Shown in pieces: positions 11,954 through 18,992 of a stretch of 50,552 nucleotides of DNA. How positions within the stretch are numbered: the first letter of the stretch is position 1; every line of letters starts with the position of its first letter. The notes under the pieces are model-generated. The model did not search any database. It was given only the letters and a program-made list of their open reading frames with translations, and had not been told where the DNA came from. Location: assembly GCA_003235575.1 (NCBI GenBank), contig QJVW01000051.1, positions 1 through 50,552 on the forward strand, given 5' to 3'. A program made the translations under genes and the position numbers. The stretch comes from Candidatus Eiseniibacteriota bacterium. GTDB taxonomy: Bacteria > Eisenbacteria > RBG-16-71-46 > SZUA-252.

Positions 11954-12817
11954 GTGACCGCCGCGCCCGCCGATCCGCCTGCGGCCCCGGGACCGGCGCG
12001 CTACGCCCTCCTCGGATCCCCGGTAGTCCACTCGCTGTCGCCCGTCATGCAGCGCGCCGCGTTCACGGCCGAGGCGATCGCGGCGACCTATGAGTTGTTC
12101 GACGTCGCGCCCGACGCCTTGGCGACGACGCTGGCGGCGCTGCATCGCGAAGGGTACGCGGGCCTCAATCTGACCGCGCCGCTCAAGGAACGGGCCTGGC
12201 CCCATCTCGCGGACGCCACGCCGGAGGCGGAGCGCCTCCGATCGGTGAATACGCTGATCCGCTGCGATGCCGGCTGGCGGGGGGACGTCACCGATGGCGC
12301 TGGGTTCGCGGCCTGGGCGCGGGAAGCGGCGGTTCCGTTCCGCGGGGCCGCGGTGGCGCTTCTGGGATCCGGGGGCGCGGCGCGCGCCATCGCAGCCTAT
12401 ATGGGCTCGCTGGGCGCGGCCGCGGTTGTCGTAGGAGCGCGGCACGTCGGGCGCGCCGAGGCGCTGGTCGGGGCCGTGGCCGGCGGCGGCGCGGGTACCG
12501 AGTGGGGCGCGCGGCTCCTCTCCGATGGGCGCCCCGGGCGGACCATCACGGTTCTCGTGCGGGCGCTCTCGACGGGCGCGTTCCAGCCGGAGGAGTCGGC
12601 GTGGTGGGACGCCGTCGCGCCCGGGGGGATGGTCATCGATCTGAACTATGGCTCGCTCGCGGCCGCGACGCGGGCTCGAGCGGCGGCATCGGGGATACGC
12701 TTCGACGATGGGCGGGGCATGTTGCTTCACCAAGGCGCCCTGGCCTTCGAGCGATGGACGGGGAGGAAACCGCCGCTGGAGGCGATGCGGCGGGCGCTGG
12801 AGGCGGCGACGGCGTAA
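11954..12817 (+). CDS. aroE: shikimate dehydrogenase
   Basis: The 287-residue protein has the shikimate-binding start YALLGSPVVHSLSPVMQ, the catalytic-lysine segment as GLNLTAPLKE (family NVTxPxK), VNTLIR, the NADP-binding loop LLGSGGAARAIAAY and the C-terminal GMLLHQGALAFERWTG. AroE reduces 3-dehydroshikimate in aromatic amino-acid synthesis. The start is GTG 11954, four bases after lgt, with no strong ribosome site, so coupling to lgt is likely. The Leu and Ala changes in the NVTxP motif are mild. A general shikimate/quinate dehydrogenase cannot be excluded, but no other aro gene is nearby. Confidence 0.87.
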   Translation: MTAAPADPPAAPGPARYALLGSPVVHSLSPVMQRAAFTAEAIAATYELFDVAPDALATTLAALHREGYAGLNLTAPLKERAWPHLADATPEAERLRSVNTLIRCDAGWRGDVTDGAGFAAWAREAAVPFRGAAVALLGSGGAARAIAAYMGSLGAAAVVVGARHVGRAEALVGAVAGGGAGTEWGARLLSDGRPGRTITVLVRALSTGAFQPEESAWWDAVAPGGMVIDLNYGSLAAATRARAAASGIRFDDGRGMLLHQGALAFERWTGRKPPLEAMRRALEAATA

Positions 12818-12846
12818 CGAGCGCGGCGGTCGGGGAGGACGGGGTA

Positions 12847-13785
12847 GTGGGTGGAGGTCGACGCCCCGCCGGGGGCGGTTGGGCGCGCGCGCTGGCGGGC
12901 GATCTGCTGGACGCGCTGACCGACCGGCGATGCCCGGGATGCGAGGGGCCGCTGGAGCGGACGGAACTGGTGTGCGCCGCCTGCGACGCGGCCATCGATC
13001 GAAGCGGATCGGTGCTCTGCCTCGCCTGTCTCCGTGGAGATCCAGCAGACGCGGTTCCGGCGGCGGGCGCGCGAGGCTGCCCGCGGCACGGCTCACGAAC
13101 GCTCCTCCTCGCGGGACCGCCCCACGCCGCCCCCCTCGACGCCGTCGTGCGGCATTTCAAGTACGCCGGAGCGTCACGCCTGGGTCGCTGGCTGGCCTCG
13201 TTGGTGCCCGAGCCGCCCGGAGTATCGGAGCGCTTCGGGCGCGAGGCCGTGATCGTTCCCGTTCCGCTCCACGTTGCGCGGCGCGCCGCCCGGGGATTCG
13301 ATCAGGCGGCGCTTCTGGCGGAGCACGTCGGCGCCTGGTGGGGCGTGCCGGTGGTCCACGCCCTGCGCCGCGTGCGGGACACGGCCCCCCAGGCCCGCGG
13401 CGGCGCGGACGAGCGGCGGCGGAATGTTCGCGGCGCGTTCGCGCTGGCGGCGGACAAGCGTGAAGTCGTCCGGGGTCGAACCGTGCTGCTGATCGACGAC
13501 GTCGCCACCACGGGGTCCACGCTTCTCGAAGCGCACGAGGCCCTTGCGACCGCGCACCCGGCTTGGGTCCTGGCGCTCGCGGCGGCCCACGGAGGCGGCC
13601 CCGAGGGGCCGCAATTGACTTCCAATGATGACGTTGCGGGGGTTCCTGGCGTTGTGCTAGAGTCTCAGGCTTGGCAGATTGGGACGAAGCCGTCCTCAGT
13701 GCATCCATATCGTTCTATTTCCGAACCACTTGCAACGGATCGTCGCGATCGAGGAGAGGGGCATGGACAAGCTGCGTCTGCTTGA
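12847..13785 (+). CDS. comF: ComF-family phosphoribosyltransferase-like protein with unusual C-terminal extension
   Basis: The N-terminal part has Cys pairs of the ComF zinc-ribbon type (CPGCEGPL; CAAC; CLAC). The rest is a phosphoribosyltransferase fold with the PRPP loop VLLIDDVATTGSTL. ComF helps natural transformation in some bacteria; its biochemical role is poorly known. The GTG at 12847 follows GGGGAGGA at seven bases and is preferred to an upstream ATG inside aroE. The family fold should end near ALAAAH (about base 13590). The frame then continues for some 65 residues through a perfect hairpin and a promoter to a stop inside the next gene. This tail looks non-coding (see findings). 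Confidence 0.83.
   Translation: MGGGRRPAGGGWARALAGDLLDALTDRRCPGCEGPLERTELVCAACDAAIDRSGSVLCLACLRGDPADAVPAAGARGCPRHGSRTLLLAGPPHAAPLDAVVRHFKYAGASRLGRWLASLVPEPPGVSERFGREAVIVPVPLHVARRAARGFDQAALLAEHVGAWWGVPVVHALRRVRDTAPQARGGADERRRNVRGAFALAADKREVVRGRTVLLIDDVATTGSTLLEAHEALATAHPAWVLALAAAHGGGPEGPQLTSNDDVAGVPGVVLESQAWQIGTKPSSVHPYRSISEPLATDRRDRGEGHGQAASA
13595..13612 (+). terminator. perfect GC hairpin at the end of the comF domain
   Basis: GCGGCCCC (13595-13602) and GGGGCCGC (13605-13612) are a perfect 8-base inverted repeat around GA, effectively a 7-bp stem with a CGAG loop. AATTGACTTCC follows, without a T-run. It lies just upstream of the promoter at 13634-13663, as a terminator or attenuator between two units would. 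It is also in the open comF frame, so coding coincidence remains possible. Confidence 0.5.
13634..13663 (+). promoter_or_regulatory. internal extended -10 promoter for the radical SAM gene
   Basis: TTGCGG (13634-13639), an 18-base spacer and TAGAGT (13658-13663) preceded by TGC, giving TGCTAGAGT. The predicted start near 13670 leaves a leader of about 93 bases before the ATG at 13763. It overlaps the C-terminal extension of comF and would allow the radical SAM-rng-rplU-rpmA-mdh part to be expressed apart from the shape genes. Confidence 0.6.
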
Positions 13786-16774
13786 CGAAGCATACCTGCC
13801 GCTGGTGACCAAACCGAGCCGCTACTCGGGAAGTTTCTTGCACGCGGCCCGGAAGGACCCGGCGACGGCGAAGGTCCGGGTCCTGCTCTGTTTTCCCGAC
13901 CTCTACGAGATCGGGATGTCGTATCTCGGACTGAAGATCCTCTACCACATGGTGAACAACCGTCCGGACGGCGCCGCGGAGCTCTGCTTCACGCCTTGGG
14001 GGGACATGGAGCGGCTCATGCGCGCGGAGGGAATTCCCCTCTACTCGCTCGAGTCGCGGACCCCGGCGCGGGAATTCGACGTGATCGGCGTCTCCCTCCA
14101 GTACGAGCTCGCCTACACGAACATGCTCACGATGATCGACCTGGCCGGGATTCCCCTGCGTGCCAAGGATCGCCGGGAAGATGATCCGATCGTCGTCGCG
14201 GGCGGTCTCTGCACGGTGAACCCGGAGCCCTTCGCCCCGTTCGTCGACGCGGTGGTGGTCGGGGACGGGGAAGAAGTGATGATGGAGATCTGCGATCTGA
14301 TCGCCGAGCGCCGGGACGGGCGGATGTCGCGCGCGGAATTGCTCCGCCGCCTCGCGGCGCTCGAAGGGGTGTACGTCCCCGCGCTGTTCGCCGAGGTGAT
14401 GAACCCCTACGGCTTCGTGGCGCGGGAGGCGCTGCCCGACGCCGCGGTCGCCCGTCCGCGATTCCGGTGGGTGCCGGCGCTCGACCCGGCGTACTACCCG
14501 GAAAAGCCGCTGCTGTCGCCGACGGAGATCACGCACGACCGGCTGGGCGTCGAGGTGATGCGCGGCTGCACCCGCGGCTGCCGCTTCTGCCTGGCGGGCT
14601 ACATGAACCGCCCGCTGCGCGAGAAGCGCGCCGACCAAGTCGCCAAGGAAGTCCAGTGCGGCATCGTGCACGCCGGATGGGACGAGGTCTCGCTCCTGTC
14701 GCTTTCGACGACCGATTACAAGCAGCTCCCGGTGGTGCTCCATGAGCTCGACCGGTTCACGAACGAGTTCGGCGTCTCGGTCTCGCTGCCGTCGACGCGC
14801 GTCGGAACGCTGGCTCCGTCCGTGGCCGACAAGATCGGACAGGGGCGGAAGGGGAGCATCACGTTCGCGCCCGAGGCGGGAACCCAACGGATGCGCGACG
14901 TGATCAACAAGGGGATCGACGAGGCCGAGCTCGAGTACTCCGTCAAGCTGGCCCGCGACCAGGGGTGGGGCGGCATCAAGTTCTACTTCATGATCGGCCT
15001 GCCCACCGAGACGATGGAAGACATCGACGGGATCGCCGCGACGCTGCGCAAGGCGCAGGAGTGGGCGCGCGGGGGCAACAAGCGCATGCACTTCAACGTG
15101 GGGATCTCGCCGCACGTGCCGAAGTCGCACACGCCGTTCCAGTGGGAGATCCAGGACGATATGGAGACCCTGGCCGCGAAGATCGATCGCCTGAAGAAGG
15201 GCTTTCGCGGCATGGGCAACGTTCGGCTCAAGTGGCGCGATCCGAAGACGGCCTTCCTGGAGGGCGTCTTCGCGCGCGGCGACGCCCGGACGGCGGACGC
15301 GCTCGAGGCGGCCTGGAAGCTCGGCGCGCGCTTCGACGGCTGGTCCGAGTGCTTCGACTTCGGGCTCTGGATGCGCGCCTTCGAATCCGTCGGCGTCGAC
15401 CCCTCGATCTACCTGCGTCCGCGCGATCTCGACGAGCAGCTTCCGTGGGACCATATCCGCACGCCGGTCGTGAAGAAATTCCTGCTGGAGGAACGCGCGA
15501 AGGCCTACGCGGCCGCGCTGACCCCCGACTGCCGGGATCACGCCTGCTACCGGTGCGGCGCCCCCTGCTTCACGCCGAAGGCGCGGGAGGGACGGCGCCT
15601 GTCGCTTCAGCTGGCGCCGGGACAGGGGACCGACCCGACATCGTTGGCGTTCTCCGTGCCGCCGGACGTGACCACCGATGACATTCGGGCGCGCGTCGCG
15701 GAGTTGGAGGAGGCGCCGATCGATGCCCTCAAGGGAACGACCGCGCCGCCACCCAGCGCCGAGAAGACGACCGTGAACGGCAACGGCCATCGAAACGGAA
15801 ATGGAAACGGCAACGGCAACGGTGCGGGCAAGGGGAGCGGCGCCGCCGCCTCTCAGCACGCCGGGGCTCCGTCCGGGGCGGACGCCGCGGAAAGCCTCGT
15901 CGGGCGCACGTTCGGCCGCCGCCGCCGCGTCTGGCCGACCGCTTCGCGCGGCACGGAGGCGACGCGCTATCGCGTCGCCTACGAAAAGATCGGGCCGGCG
16001 CGCTTTACGTCGCACCTGGACCTCGTCCGGATCTTCGACCGCGCGCTCCGCGTCGCCAAGATCCCGATGGCGTACACGCAGGGTTTCAACCGGCACGCGA
16101 AGATCGCCTACGGACCGCCCCTCTCGCTGGGCGCGACGAGCCGGGCGGAATATTTCGATCTGGAATTGGCCCAGGCCGTCTCCTGGGACACGATCGCGGC
16201 CCTGAACTCGATCCTTCCGGAGGGTGTGCGCATCCTCGAGGGACGACCCTTCTCGCGAAACGTGGAATCGCTCATGTCGGTGATCACCCGCGCGGACTAC
16301 CGCGTGACGCTCACCGAATCGTTGATGGACCGACTCGCGCGCGGCGAAGACGTGCACCGCGTGCGACAGGAGCTGGAACGGAGCGCGCAGGCGTTCCGGG
16401 CGGCGGATTCCTGGCCGGTGCAGAAGCCGAGCCAGGGTGCGGCGAAGACCGTAAACGCGCGCCCCGCCGTCATTCTGCTGGAGCCGCTCGCCGAGGGATC
16501 GCTCCCCGGCGTGAAGGTGGCGTCGCGACTGCAGACGCAGGGATACGTGCGTCCCGATCTGCTGCTCCGCAGCCTGCTCCCGTCCTTCGAATTCGATTCC
16601 CGCCTCCTTCGCGTGAGCCGCGAGGCTCTGTCGGTGGAGCGGGGAACGACGCTCTTCACGCCTCTCGAGGCGCTGGAGGAGTCGTCGTTCTGGCGGGCCA
16701 TGCCCGTGGACCGCGACGGTGCGGCCACGACGGATGCGACCCTGGAGGTGGATGCGCCGAGAAATCATCATTAA
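13763..16774 (+). CDS. B12-binding-like radical SAM protein fused to a DUF2344 domain
   Basis: The 1003-residue protein begins with a B12-binding-like Rossmann region (VRVLLCFPDLYEIGMSYLGL). The radical SAM domain follows, with its [4Fe-4S] ligands Cys269, Cys273 and Cys276 in CTRGCRFC. A cysteine-containing segment lies at residues 593-606 (CRDHACYRCGAPC), then an Asn-Gly repeat linker (about 672-687), and from about residue 735 a DUF2344 domain (ARFTSHLDLVRIFDRAL ... YTQGFNRHAKIAYGP). In many bacteria the two halves are separate neighbouring genes upstream of rng-rplU-rpmA, exactly the context here. The reaction and substrate are unknown; the neighbours suggest RNA or ribosome modification, which is inference. 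GAGGAGAGG precedes the ATG; the 3' end overlaps rng. Confidence 0.85.
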   Translation: MDKLRLLDEAYLPLVTKPSRYSGSFLHAARKDPATAKVRVLLCFPDLYEIGMSYLGLKILYHMVNNRPDGAAELCFTPWGDMERLMRAEGIPLYSLESRTPAREFDVIGVSLQYELAYTNMLTMIDLAGIPLRAKDRREDDPIVVAGGLCTVNPEPFAPFVDAVVVGDGEEVMMEICDLIAERRDGRMSRAELLRRLAALEGVYVPALFAEVMNPYGFVAREALPDAAVARPRFRWVPALDPAYYPEKPLLSPTEITHDRLGVEVMRGCTRGCRFCLAGYMNRPLREKRADQVAKEVQCGIVHAGWDEVSLLSLSTTDYKQLPVVLHELDRFTNEFGVSVSLPSTRVGTLAPSVADKIGQGRKGSITFAPEAGTQRMRDVINKGIDEAELEYSVKLARDQGWGGIKFYFMIGLPTETMEDIDGIAATLRKAQEWARGGNKRMHFNVGISPHVPKSHTPFQWEIQDDMETLAAKIDRLKKGFRGMGNVRLKWRDPKTAFLEGVFARGDARTADALEAAWKLGARFDGWSECFDFGLWMRAFESVGVDPSIYLRPRDLDEQLPWDHIRTPVVKKFLLEERAKAYAAALTPDCRDHACYRCGAPCFTPKAREGRRLSLQLAPGQGTDPTSLAFSVPPDVTTDDIRARVAELEEAPIDALKGTTAPPPSAEKTTVNGNGHRNGNGNGNGNGAGKGSGAAASQHAGAPSGADAAESLVGRTFGRRRRVWPTASRGTEATRYRVAYEKIGPARFTSHLDLVRIFDRALRVAKIPMAYTQGFNRHAKIAYGPPLSLGATSRAEYFDLELAQAVSWDTIAALNSILPEGVRILEGRPFSRNVESLMSVITRADYRVTLTESLMDRLARGEDVHRVRQELERSAQAFRAADSWPVQKPSQGAAKTVNARPAVILLEPLAEGSLPGVKVASRLQTQGYVRPDLLLRSLLPSFEFDSRLLRVSREALSVERGTTLFTPLEALEESSFWRAMPVDRDGAATTDATLEVDAPRNHH
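15776..15823 (+). repeat. Asn-Gly codon repeat in the radical SAM protein linker
   Basis: Sixteen codons, built mainly from AACGGC, AACGGA and AATGGA units, encode an alternating Asn-Gly stretch broken once by His-Arg. It joins the radical SAM half to the DUF2344 half and should be a flexible tether. Such a hexameric repeat is prone to length change between strains. Confidence 0.85.
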
Positions 16775-18323
16775 TGCGACACCGCGCGAGACGCGGATTG
16801 CGATTCTCGAGGACAAGAACCTCGCCGAGATACTGGTGGAACGGCCGGAAGCCGTCCGCCGCGTGGGAGACATCTACAAGGGGCGTGTGAACGCCGTCCT
16901 GCCGGGAATGCAGGCCGCGTTCGTCGATCTGGGACTCGAGAAGAGCGCGTTTCTCCATGCTTCGGACCTGATGCCGCCGAGCGACGTCGACGAGTTGTTC
17001 GCCGAGGACGAGCCCGCGGTCGAGGAGCCGCGTCGCGGGGGCCGGGGGGGACGCGGGGGCCGGGGCGGCCGCCACGAGGAGGCGGCGCCGCGCATCGAGG
17101 ATGCGCTGCAAAAGGGGCAGGAGCTGCTGGTCCAGATCACGAAGGAGCCGATCGGGACCAAGGGTCCGCGCGTCACCACGCAGGTGTCGCTGCCGGGACG
17201 GTTCCTGGTCTACATGCCGGGCCATGAACACGTCGGCATTTCCCGGAAGATCGAGGAGCGGGGGGAGCGGCAGCGCCTGAAGGAGATCGCGCGCTCGATC
17301 CGCCCGCAAAACGCCGGGATCATCATTCGGACGGTGGGCCAGGAGCAGAGCGAGAAGGAGTTCGAGGCCGACGTTCGCGCGCTGGAACTGCTGTGGCAGA
17401 AGGTCGAAAAGCAGGCGCAAAAGTCGAAGGCGCCCGCCCTGCTGCATCAGGAAATGGACTTCACGACCGGACTGATTCGCGACATCTTCAACGAGGACGT
17501 CGATCAGCTGGTCATCGATTCGAAGGAGGAGCACCGGCAGATCCAGCAGTACCTGGCGACCTACGCTCCGGAGTTGAAGCCGCGCGTGAAGCTCTACCGC
17601 GGACGCGCGCCGATCTTCGACCACTTCGACATCGAGTCGGAGATCGAGAAGACCATGGAGCGTAAGGTGTGGCTCCGGAAGGGCGGCTACATCACGATCG
17701 ACCAGACCGAGGCGTTGGTCGCGATCGACGTGAACACCGGTCGGTTCGTCGGGAAGAAGAATCAAGAGGAGACGATCCTCAAGACGAATCTGGAGGCGGC
17801 GGCGGAGATCGCGCGGCAGCTCCGGCTTCGGGACCTGGGCGGCATCATCGTCCTCGACTTCATCGACATGGAGATCGAGGCGAACCGCCGTCAGGTCGCC
17901 GACACGCTGCGGCAGCACTTGAAGCGGGACCGGTCGCGCACGAAGGCATTCGCCGTCAGCGATCTCGGGTTGGTGGAGATGACGCGGCAACGCCAGCGGC
18001 CCAGTCTCCAGAATTACTTCACGGAGCCCTGTCCGAACTGTCAGGGCGCCGCCCGGGTGCTGTCGCTGTCGTCGGCGGCGCTCAAGATCGAGCGGATGCT
18101 GCACCGCGTCGGGCAGAAGGGCAAGGACAAGCAGATCATCCTGCGCGTCCATCCCGACGTGGCGGTCTATCTGGTGGAGCAGGAGGCCGGTCGCCTCGAG
18201 CGGCTGGAACGGCAGTATCGATTGTTGGTGGAGATTCGCGACGATCCGTCGCTCCGGCGCGACGAGATCCGTCTCTTTCGAGGCCGGACTTTCGAGGAAA
18301 TCACGAAGCAGTTCGAGCAGTAG
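16752..18323 (+). CDS. rng: ribonuclease E/G family endoribonuclease
   Basis: The 523-residue protein has the RNase E/G catalytic core: an S1 domain (DIYKGRVNAVLPGMQAAFVD), the metal-binding aspartates Asp326 in AIDVNTGRF and Asp369 in VLDFIDM (43 residues apart, as in E. coli RNase E), and the zinc-link cysteines in CPNCQG. There is no long C-terminal degradosome scaffold, so it is nearer RNase G in size. The enzyme cuts single-stranded AU-rich RNA in rRNA maturation and mRNA decay. An Arg-Gly-Gly repeat interrupts the S1 domain. The ATG at 16752 lies inside the preceding gene, with GGAGG close upstream. Confidence 0.93.
   Translation: MRREIIINATPRETRIAILEDKNLAEILVERPEAVRRVGDIYKGRVNAVLPGMQAAFVDLGLEKSAFLHASDLMPPSDVDELFAEDEPAVEEPRRGGRGGRGGRGGRHEEAAPRIEDALQKGQELLVQITKEPIGTKGPRVTTQVSLPGRFLVYMPGHEHVGISRKIEERGERQRLKEIARSIRPQNAGIIIRTVGQEQSEKEFEADVRALELLWQKVEKQAQKSKAPALLHQEMDFTTGLIRDIFNEDVDQLVIDSKEEHRQIQQYLATYAPELKPRVKLYRGRAPIFDHFDIESEIEKTMERKVWLRKGGYITIDQTEALVAIDVNTGRFVGKKNQEETILKTNLEAAAEIARQLRLRDLGGIIVLDFIDMEIEANRRQVADTLRQHLKRDRSRTKAFAVSDLGLVEMTRQRQRPSLQNYFTEPCPNCQGAARVLSLSSAALKIERMLHRVGQKGKDKQIILRVHPDVAVYLVEQEAGRLERLERQYRLLVEIRDDPSLRRDEIRLFRGRTFEEITKQFEQ
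17031..17072 (+). repeat. RGG repeat inside the RNase E/G S1 domain
   Basis: Fourteen codons give Arg-Arg followed by four Gly-Gly-Arg units (residues 94-107), directly after an acidic stretch (FAEDEPAVEEP). It falls in the S1-domain loop that varies in length among RNase E/G proteins. RGG tracts commonly bind RNA, so it may add contacts. Confidence 0.85.
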
Positions 18324-18365: not shown

Positions 18366-18689
18366 ATGGGCGAGTCGCAGTATGCTGTCATTCAGGCGGG
18401 TGGGCTGCAGCTCCGCGTGGCACCGCAGGAGGAGCACGTTCTGCCCAAGATGGACGTCAAGGCCGGCGCCAAGGTCACGTTCGACCGGGTTCTCCTGGTT
18501 TCGGACGGCAAAGGCGTGAAGTTCGGCCGCCCGACCGTGGAGGGCGCGACGGTGAGCGCCGAGGTCGTGGGCGACGAGAAGGGCAAGAAGATCACCGTGG
18601 GCGTGTACAAGCGGCGGAGCAAATACCGCCGGAAGATTGGATACCGGGATTCTCTCACTCGGGTGAGGATTCTGGACATCCGCGCGTAG
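18366..18689 (+). CDS. rplU: 50S ribosomal protein L21
   Basis: The 107-residue protein matches L21 along its length: YAVIQAGGLQLRVAP, FDRVLLVSD, a YKRRSKYRRKIGYRDSLTRVRI basic C-terminal part and no extension. It binds 23S rRNA domain V/VI near L20. I chose the ATG at 18366; an in-frame TTG two codons upstream is part of the purine-rich ribosome site (GGAAGGTTGGAG). It sits 42 bases after rng and 21 before rpmA, the usual L21-L27 pair. Confidence 0.96.
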   Translation: MGESQYAVIQAGGLQLRVAPQEEHVLPKMDVKAGAKVTFDRVLLVSDGKGVKFGRPTVEGATVSAEVVGDEKGKKITVGVYKRRSKYRRKIGYRDSLTRVRILDIRA

Positions 18690-18710: not shown

Positions 18711-18992
18711 ATGGCTCATAAAAAAGGCGTATCGAGTTCACGAAACGGCCGGGACTCCGCCGCCCAGCGGTTGGGGGTGAAGTGCTTCGGCGGGGAGAAG
18801 GTCCGGGCCGGAAACATCCTGATCCGCCAGCGCGGCACGGCCGTGCAGGCGGGGCTCAACGTGGGGCGCGGCAAGGACGACACCCTCTTCGCGCTCGCTG
18901 ACGGGTACGTTCAATTCAAGCGGCGGGGCCGGAGCGGTCTCCAGGTGTCCGTGGAACCGACGAGGTCCGCCTCCGAGGCGGCACATGCCTAA
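18711..18992 (+). CDS. rpmA: 50S ribosomal protein L27
   Basis: The 93-residue protein starts [16 protein letters not shown], the L27 N-terminus that reaches the peptidyl-transferase centre. There is no Firmicutes-type cleaved leader. The body ([20 protein letters not shown]) is canonical. GAGAGGAAGG precedes the ATG. The last eight bases overlap mdh in another frame, so the two are translationally linked. Confidence 0.97.

Follow-up and report, generated by a model that had tools for sequence, protein, structure and literature searches.

A radical SAM family carrying a predicted, catalytically dead TruA-type fold: a candidate RNA-modifying enzyme

MiaB and RimO are radical SAM enzymes with a TRAM domain at their C-terminus. 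The TRAM domain of MiaB, which modifies RNA, is basic, while that of RimO, which has a protein substrate, shows the opposite polarity (PMC5352715). The family studied here joins or pairs a radical SAM protein with a DUF2344 domain. It is widespread among bacteria and has never been functionally studied. NCBIfam already catalogues the family as well as the fusion, the respective model TIGR03960 being named 'rSAM_fuse_unch' without a function, such that the fusion as such has been described before. The first-pass annotation of the locus knew of no reaction, and we likewise found neither a reaction nor a function in the literature on DUF2344, TIGR03960, PF10105 and COG5011. A study of Pfam clans lists 'PseudoU_synth_1+DUF2344' as one form of a split pseudouridine synthase domain (PMC7955657), i.e., the kinship of DUF2344 and pseudouridine synthases has already been noted at clan level. 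We found no paper that draws a functional conclusion from this kinship. In TruA, the loop GRTDxG holds the catalytic Asp, which is essential in the known pseudouridine synthases.

We studied the family starting from a window of 50,552 nt, i.e., the whole analysed stretch of a Candidatus Eiseniibacteriota contig (QJVW01000051.1). The coordinates of all features are provided in Table 1. The fusion ORF is directly preceded by a good ribosome-binding site (AGGAGAGG), and it overlaps rng by 23 nt, with the rng ATG at 16752. This overlap and the rplU/rpmA context are thus as first annotated. The upstream ComF-like gene is also tightly packed against the fusion ORF. That is, the 3' end of this phosphoribosyltransferase ORF (window 12502-13785, + strand) lies 23 nt within the start of the fusion ORF, and its true start is internal to the listed frame.

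Table 1. Features of the fusion ORF and its 3' neighbours (window positions; residues refer to the fusion protein).
Feature	Position	Strand	Basis
B12-type radical SAM/DUF2344 fusion, complete ORF, 1003 aa	13763..16774	+	uninterrupted, ATG 13763, stop 16774
TIGR03960 radical SAM half, residues 12-603	13796..15571	+	661 bits; Foldseek neighbours MgmA, TsrM, CysS, OxsB, MtaB, MiaB
Cobalamin-binding-like Rossmann domain (Radical_SAM_N2), residues 56-206	13928..14380	+	Pfam PF19864, 206 bits
CxxxCxxC motif (C269, C273, C276), radical SAM [4Fe-4S] cluster	14567..14590	+	invariant in homologues
Second Cys cluster CRDHACYRCGAPC, residues 590-602 (C590, C595, C598, C602)	15530..15568	+	conservation in homologues
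Predicted disordered linker (residues 607-729); Asn-Gly repeat, residues 672-687	15581..15949	+	pLDDT < 50 over most
DUF2344/TIGR03936 domain, residues 735-975, predicted TruA-type pseudouridine synthase fold	15965..16687	+	model, Foldseek, profile match 1vs3
GPPL(S/P)LG, residues 784-790, predicted equivalent of TruA loop GRTDxG	16112..16132	+	profile-alignment register
rng (RNase E/G), 3' neighbour of the fusion ORF	16752..18323	+	Pfam PF10150, 365 bits; start context
rplU (L21), neighbour	18366..18689	+	Pfam PF00829
rpmA (L27), neighbour	18711..18992	+	Pfam PF01016

The architecture given by the first-pass annotation, i.e., a 1003-residue polypeptide with a B12-binding-like domain, a CxxxCxxC radical SAM domain, a Cys-rich segment, an Asn-Gly repeat and DUF2344, is recovered in full. 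The B12-binding-like domain is identified via PF19864, with the match of the N-terminal half to PF02310 (B12-binding) staying below threshold (28.9 bits, cut-off 32.1). Membership in TIGR03960 is borne out by a score above the curated cut-off (661.1 bits vs. 462.3, E 1.6e-198) across the full model (positions 4-600 of 605). PF04055 (radical SAM) matches with 64 bits, and the CxxxCxxC motif lies within a radical SAM barrel, which places the protein in the radical SAM superfamily. All three cysteines of the motif are invariant, both in 69 full-length and in 110 radical-half sequences.

For the full-length structure model (pLDDT 84.3, pTM 0.83), Foldseek orders the neighbours of the radical half as MgmA, TsrM, MtaB, CysS, MiaB, OxsB, AprD4 and RimO, i.e., MgmA is its best structural match. 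The three N-terminal cysteines of the MiaB/RimO type (UPF0004) are absent from the 110 homologues, where only C150 is conserved in this region (74%). We rejected a MiaB-type methylthiotransferase because of these missing cysteines. The Asn-Gly repeat was rejected as a functional feature as well, given that it is part of a predicted disordered and lineage-specific linker, which is missing or different beyond close relatives.

Further TIGR03960-like proteins occur in some genomes. Four genomes from the class of the window's genome (G013, G014, G015, G017) encode a second, divergent one beside the fused protein (268-304 bits), with frames of 538-594 aa that are too short for a fused DUF2344. A Deltaproteobacteria bin shows two tandem TIGR03960 copies (L107:9968-13698), the second of which is truncated where the locus ends.

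The C-terminal domain is matched by TIGR03936/DUF2344 (residues 735-956; 161.3 bits, cut-off 71.9, E 2.6e-47) and by Pfam's DUF2344 (PF10105; 148.5 bits, cut-off 23.8). We modelled its structure with AlphaFold2 from a 95-sequence alignment, which resulted in a confident model (pLDDT 91.4, pTM 0.85). Using Foldseek, each of the top 26 PDB matches of this model is either a pseudouridine synthase or a TruA-like protein (E from 6.8e-8, probability 1.00). They include TruA, human PUS3, human and yeast PUS1, mitoribosome TruA-like proteins as well as one Cbf5 complex. With TM-scores of no more than about 0.5 against TruA, DUF2344 is a distant relative; the identity in the structural alignments is mostly 10-14%.

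The relation is also visible at profile level. A profile search with DUF2344 leads to Thermus TruA (1vs3) with an E-value of 4.7e-4. Aligning DUF2344 and TruA with hhalign yields a score of 29.9, compared to a maximum of 20.5 for 60 column shuffles and to 9.9-22.0 for unrelated families, and the register is that of the profile search. None of the 95 DUF2344 members is matched by a pseudouridine synthase Pfam model, i.e., the link to TruA is beyond the reach of single-sequence HMM searches. Within this register, residue 788 takes the position of the catalytic Asp. Among the 95 homologues, it is P, S, A, G, Q, T or R and never D or E. That is, the TruA fold is found in DUF2344 while the catalytic Asp of the GRTD motif is not. 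Fold and missing Asp, both computed, describe DUF2344 as a predicted catalytically dead TruA fold. This TruA fold was absent from the first-pass annotation and is what is new here.

We found no TruA gene in the window's genome (G000, 94.8% complete). Since TruA is present in 8/8 other searched members of the genome's family, this absence is probably an assembly gap, and we rejected DUF2344 as a TruA replacement in this genome.

Next to the domain content, we studied how the two halves are distributed. A TIGR03960 match is present in 44/47 genomes of the window's phylum, with 41 above the cut-off. DUF2344 is encoded in the same frame at 28 of the 30 loci read in the phylum, while the remaining two (L002, L017) run off the contig end. 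Among 80 named relatives, the fused form is observed in Desulfobacterota, Myxococcota, Calditrichota, Nitrospirota, Planctomycetota, Eisenbacteria and others; in Bacillota and Chloroflexota, the halves are encoded by two neighbouring genes. Synechococcus elongatus also has matches to both halves. A single state change on a tree of 110 accounts for this distribution. The fusion is thus the usual state in its half of the tree and not peculiar to the window's genome, such that we rejected it as a rare invention.

We also evaluated the co-occurrence of the halves in 147 Clostridia genomes, of which 126 encode the radical half and 21 do not. DUF2344 is found in 124/126 genomes with and in 0/21 genomes without the radical half (p=2e-23, with shared ancestry ignored in this and all following Clostridia counts). 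The two exceptions are a genome with a truncated radical half (G156) and G150. Three genomes (G122, G167, G209) retain both halves though they are located on different contigs. Overall, about 85% of the sampled Clostridia have the pair. MtaB, i.e., a different radical SAM enzyme, was found in 142/147 genomes, and genomes without the gene are therefore not generally short of radical SAM enzymes. The co-occurrence of the two halves supports that they form one functional unit. Two earlier statements are thus upheld, namely that the halves are separate neighbouring genes in other bacteria and that they work together.

Based on these results, we think there is a reasonable chance, somewhat better than even, that the protein is a cobalamin-type radical SAM enzyme that modifies RNA, with its tRNA or rRNA substrate gripped by the catalytically dead TruA fold. 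The main argument for an RNA substrate is the TruA fold of DUF2344, compared to which gene adjacency is weaker. Given the structure model, RNA binding by DUF2344 is most likely and RNA is the likely substrate of the whole enzyme, which would probably put an undiscovered chemical mark on rRNA or tRNA. In such an enzyme, the CxxxCxxC cluster would cleave SAM, and the Rossmann domain would most likely hold a corrinoid as methyl donor for an unactivated carbon. DUF2344, having lost the catalytic Asp, would be the RNA-binding subunit. It would present one tRNA or rRNA nucleotide to the radical half, much like the basic TRAM domain in MiaB, and the radical half would alter a carbon of this nucleotide. 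We chose methylation as the putative reaction since it is the commonest outcome of the cobalamin-type radical SAM class; other radical reactions are possible. With regard to the type of RNA, the hints point both ways: TruA and its kin bind tRNA, and mitoribosome assembly intermediates contain TruA-like proteins. Several points count against this reading, such as the distant relation of DUF2344 to TruA. A dead enzyme fold can be reused for protein contacts, and, to our knowledge, the characterised B12-type radical SAM enzymes have small molecules or proteins as substrates.

The gene's neighbourhood could also be read differently, i.e., the product may be a metabolite or cofactor that has nothing to do with translation, with the ribosomal context being merely a conserved operon. 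The wider neighbourhood is ordered mreB, mreC, pbp2, rodA, minC, minD, minE, M50 protease, rng, rplU, prp, rpmA, obg, that is, the locus is the ancient mre-min-rodA-rng-rplU-rpmA-obg cluster. Because this cluster is old and its members have different jobs, adjacency to rng, rplU and rpmA is weak evidence for a role in translation. Furthermore, the pair does not require rng. RNase E/G is present in 71/126 pair-bearing and 7/21 other Clostridia, which is not a significant association (p=0.06), and 55/126 pair-bearing genomes are without a match. Among 23 named relatives, most of which have no rng beside the gene, 11 lack an RNase E/G match genome-wide. We thus rejected a functional coupling to RNase E/G as a requirement. 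The first-pass annotation had proposed this tie, with a phylogenetic profile as a check, and had taken the overlap with rng to suggest RNA or ribosome modification. The tie is not supported and neither is the reliance on rng, while the direction towards RNA is supported by the TruA fold. CysS and OxsB, both structural matches of the radical half, act on small molecules, which also fits a metabolite. On the other hand, it is not obvious what a small-molecule enzyme would need a TruA-fold partner for, and this partner is kept even where the halves are unlinked; we consider such a product unlikely.

The same operon raises the question of a protein substrate, i.e., a ribosomal or other translation protein (e.g., L21 or L27) for which DUF2344 would be the docking domain. 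MgmA, which ranks first among the structures similar to the radical half, is a protein methylase, and both RimO and MgmA are precedents for protein modification. In addition, rplU and rpmA come next in the operon and at some loci (L088, L101) directly follow the pair, without an RNase E/G gene in between. In L101's genome, RNase E/G is located elsewhere; in L088's genome, it was not found. However, TruA-type folds bind RNA, and the conserved columns of DUF2344 are biased towards basic residues, with 10 basic (Lys/Arg) vs. 3 acidic (Asp/Glu) columns and a median pI of 8.8 in 95 homologues. By analogy with the basic TRAM domain of MiaB and the opposite polarity in RimO, this bias would fit RNA rather than protein. 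A protein substrate therefore appears quite unlikely to us.

If RNA is the substrate, its modification might still be free of cobalamin. The radical reaction would then be a methylthiolation, dehydrogenation or ring chemistry, and the second Cys cluster would serve as an auxiliary Fe-S site. This cluster is indeed conserved (C590 100%, C595 and C598 94% of 110 homologues), and it may be a Zn or auxiliary Fe-S site. MtaB, MiaB and AprD4 are among the structural matches, and 5/126 pair-bearing Clostridia have neither a cobalamin riboswitch nor the corrinoid-protein domain PF02607, such that cobalamin is possibly not obligatory. Against this stand the absence of MiaB-type UPF0004 cysteines from the N-terminal domain and a strong co-occurrence with cobalamin riboswitches, which are present in 114/126 pair-bearing vs. 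5/21 other Clostridia (p=4e-10, uncorrected for shared ancestry). Either B12 marker is present in 121/126 vs. 10/21 genomes. For rng vs. cobalamin riboswitches, which served as control, we find p=0.14 in the 147 Clostridia. We also found one cobalamin riboswitch in the window's genome. Given this uncorrected co-occurrence, cobalamin use by the radical half is likely, and we deem a cobalamin-free reaction on RNA improbable.

Four homologues from Krumholzibacteriia, planctomycetes and myxobacteria (L069, L072, L079, L094) show an insertion in the second Cys cluster between C590 and the next CY motif; C590 is kept nevertheless.

Finally, DUF2344 might still be active as a pseudouridine synthase, with its catalytic residue relocated and its reaction coupled to a radical step at the same RNA site. 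We rejected this as highly improbable since the GRTD-loop Asp is missing in 95/95 homologues, even though D/E753 (99% acidic) and E796 (100%) are conserved and Tyr 846, in the segment aligned with TruA's RYxY motif, is kept in 83/95.

Returning to the RNA-modifying enzyme, we only tentatively suggest its most specific form, which has rather less than an even chance. In this form, the protein would be the first radical SAM enzyme to use cobalamin on RNA. It would methylate a carbon of an rRNA or tRNA nucleotide that is sp3 or unreactive for other reasons, with a retired pseudouridine synthase as its substrate-binding subunit. With respect to products, we dropped N-330, a nucleoside located at 16S C1404 in Thermotoga and also present in Haloferax volcanii, because the latter has neither a TIGR03960 nor a TIGR03936 match. 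A methylated dihydrouridine, reportedly found at 23S position 2449 of Clostridium sporogenes, may be a candidate product. The presence of dihydrouridine in the 23S rRNA of this species is confirmed by a review (PMC9176250).

With DUF2344 as a dead TruA fold, an anonymous radical SAM enzyme becomes a specific and cheaply testable proposal, i.e., a missing RNA modification in organisms with hardly mapped RNA. If true, radical SAM chemistry would gain a new route to RNA, and this route may be the first to involve vitamin B12. What we add to a catalogued, uncharacterised family is a structural argument for an RNA substrate.

Compared to the known families, both halves exceed the curated cut-offs of TIGR03960 and TIGR03936/PF10105 by a wide margin, the family name already mentions the fusion, and the architecture differs only by the longer Asn-Gly linker of the window's lineage. 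The cobalamin-dependent radical SAM enzymes MgmA, TsrM, CysS and OxsB belong to the structures that resemble the radical half best; we know of none among them with an RNA-binding fold. With MiaB, MtaB and RimO, the fusion protein shares the order of Rossmann domain, radical SAM barrel and C-terminal domain (RNA-binding in MiaB, PMC5352715). In contrast to them, it is without the three-Cys N-terminal auxiliary cluster, and the predicted TruA fold replaces TRAM. TruA, Pus1 and Pus3 resemble DUF2344 in fold, in the order of helices and strands and in the register around the active-site loop, but DUF2344 is without the catalytic Asp and comes with a radical SAM enzyme, either fused or as a separate partner. 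Also scoring close to DUF2344 are the TruA-like proteins of a trypanosome mitoribosome assembly intermediate (6sga, chains FB and FC). They are a parallel for TruA folds serving ribosome assembly and, unlike DUF2344, are without an attached radical enzyme.
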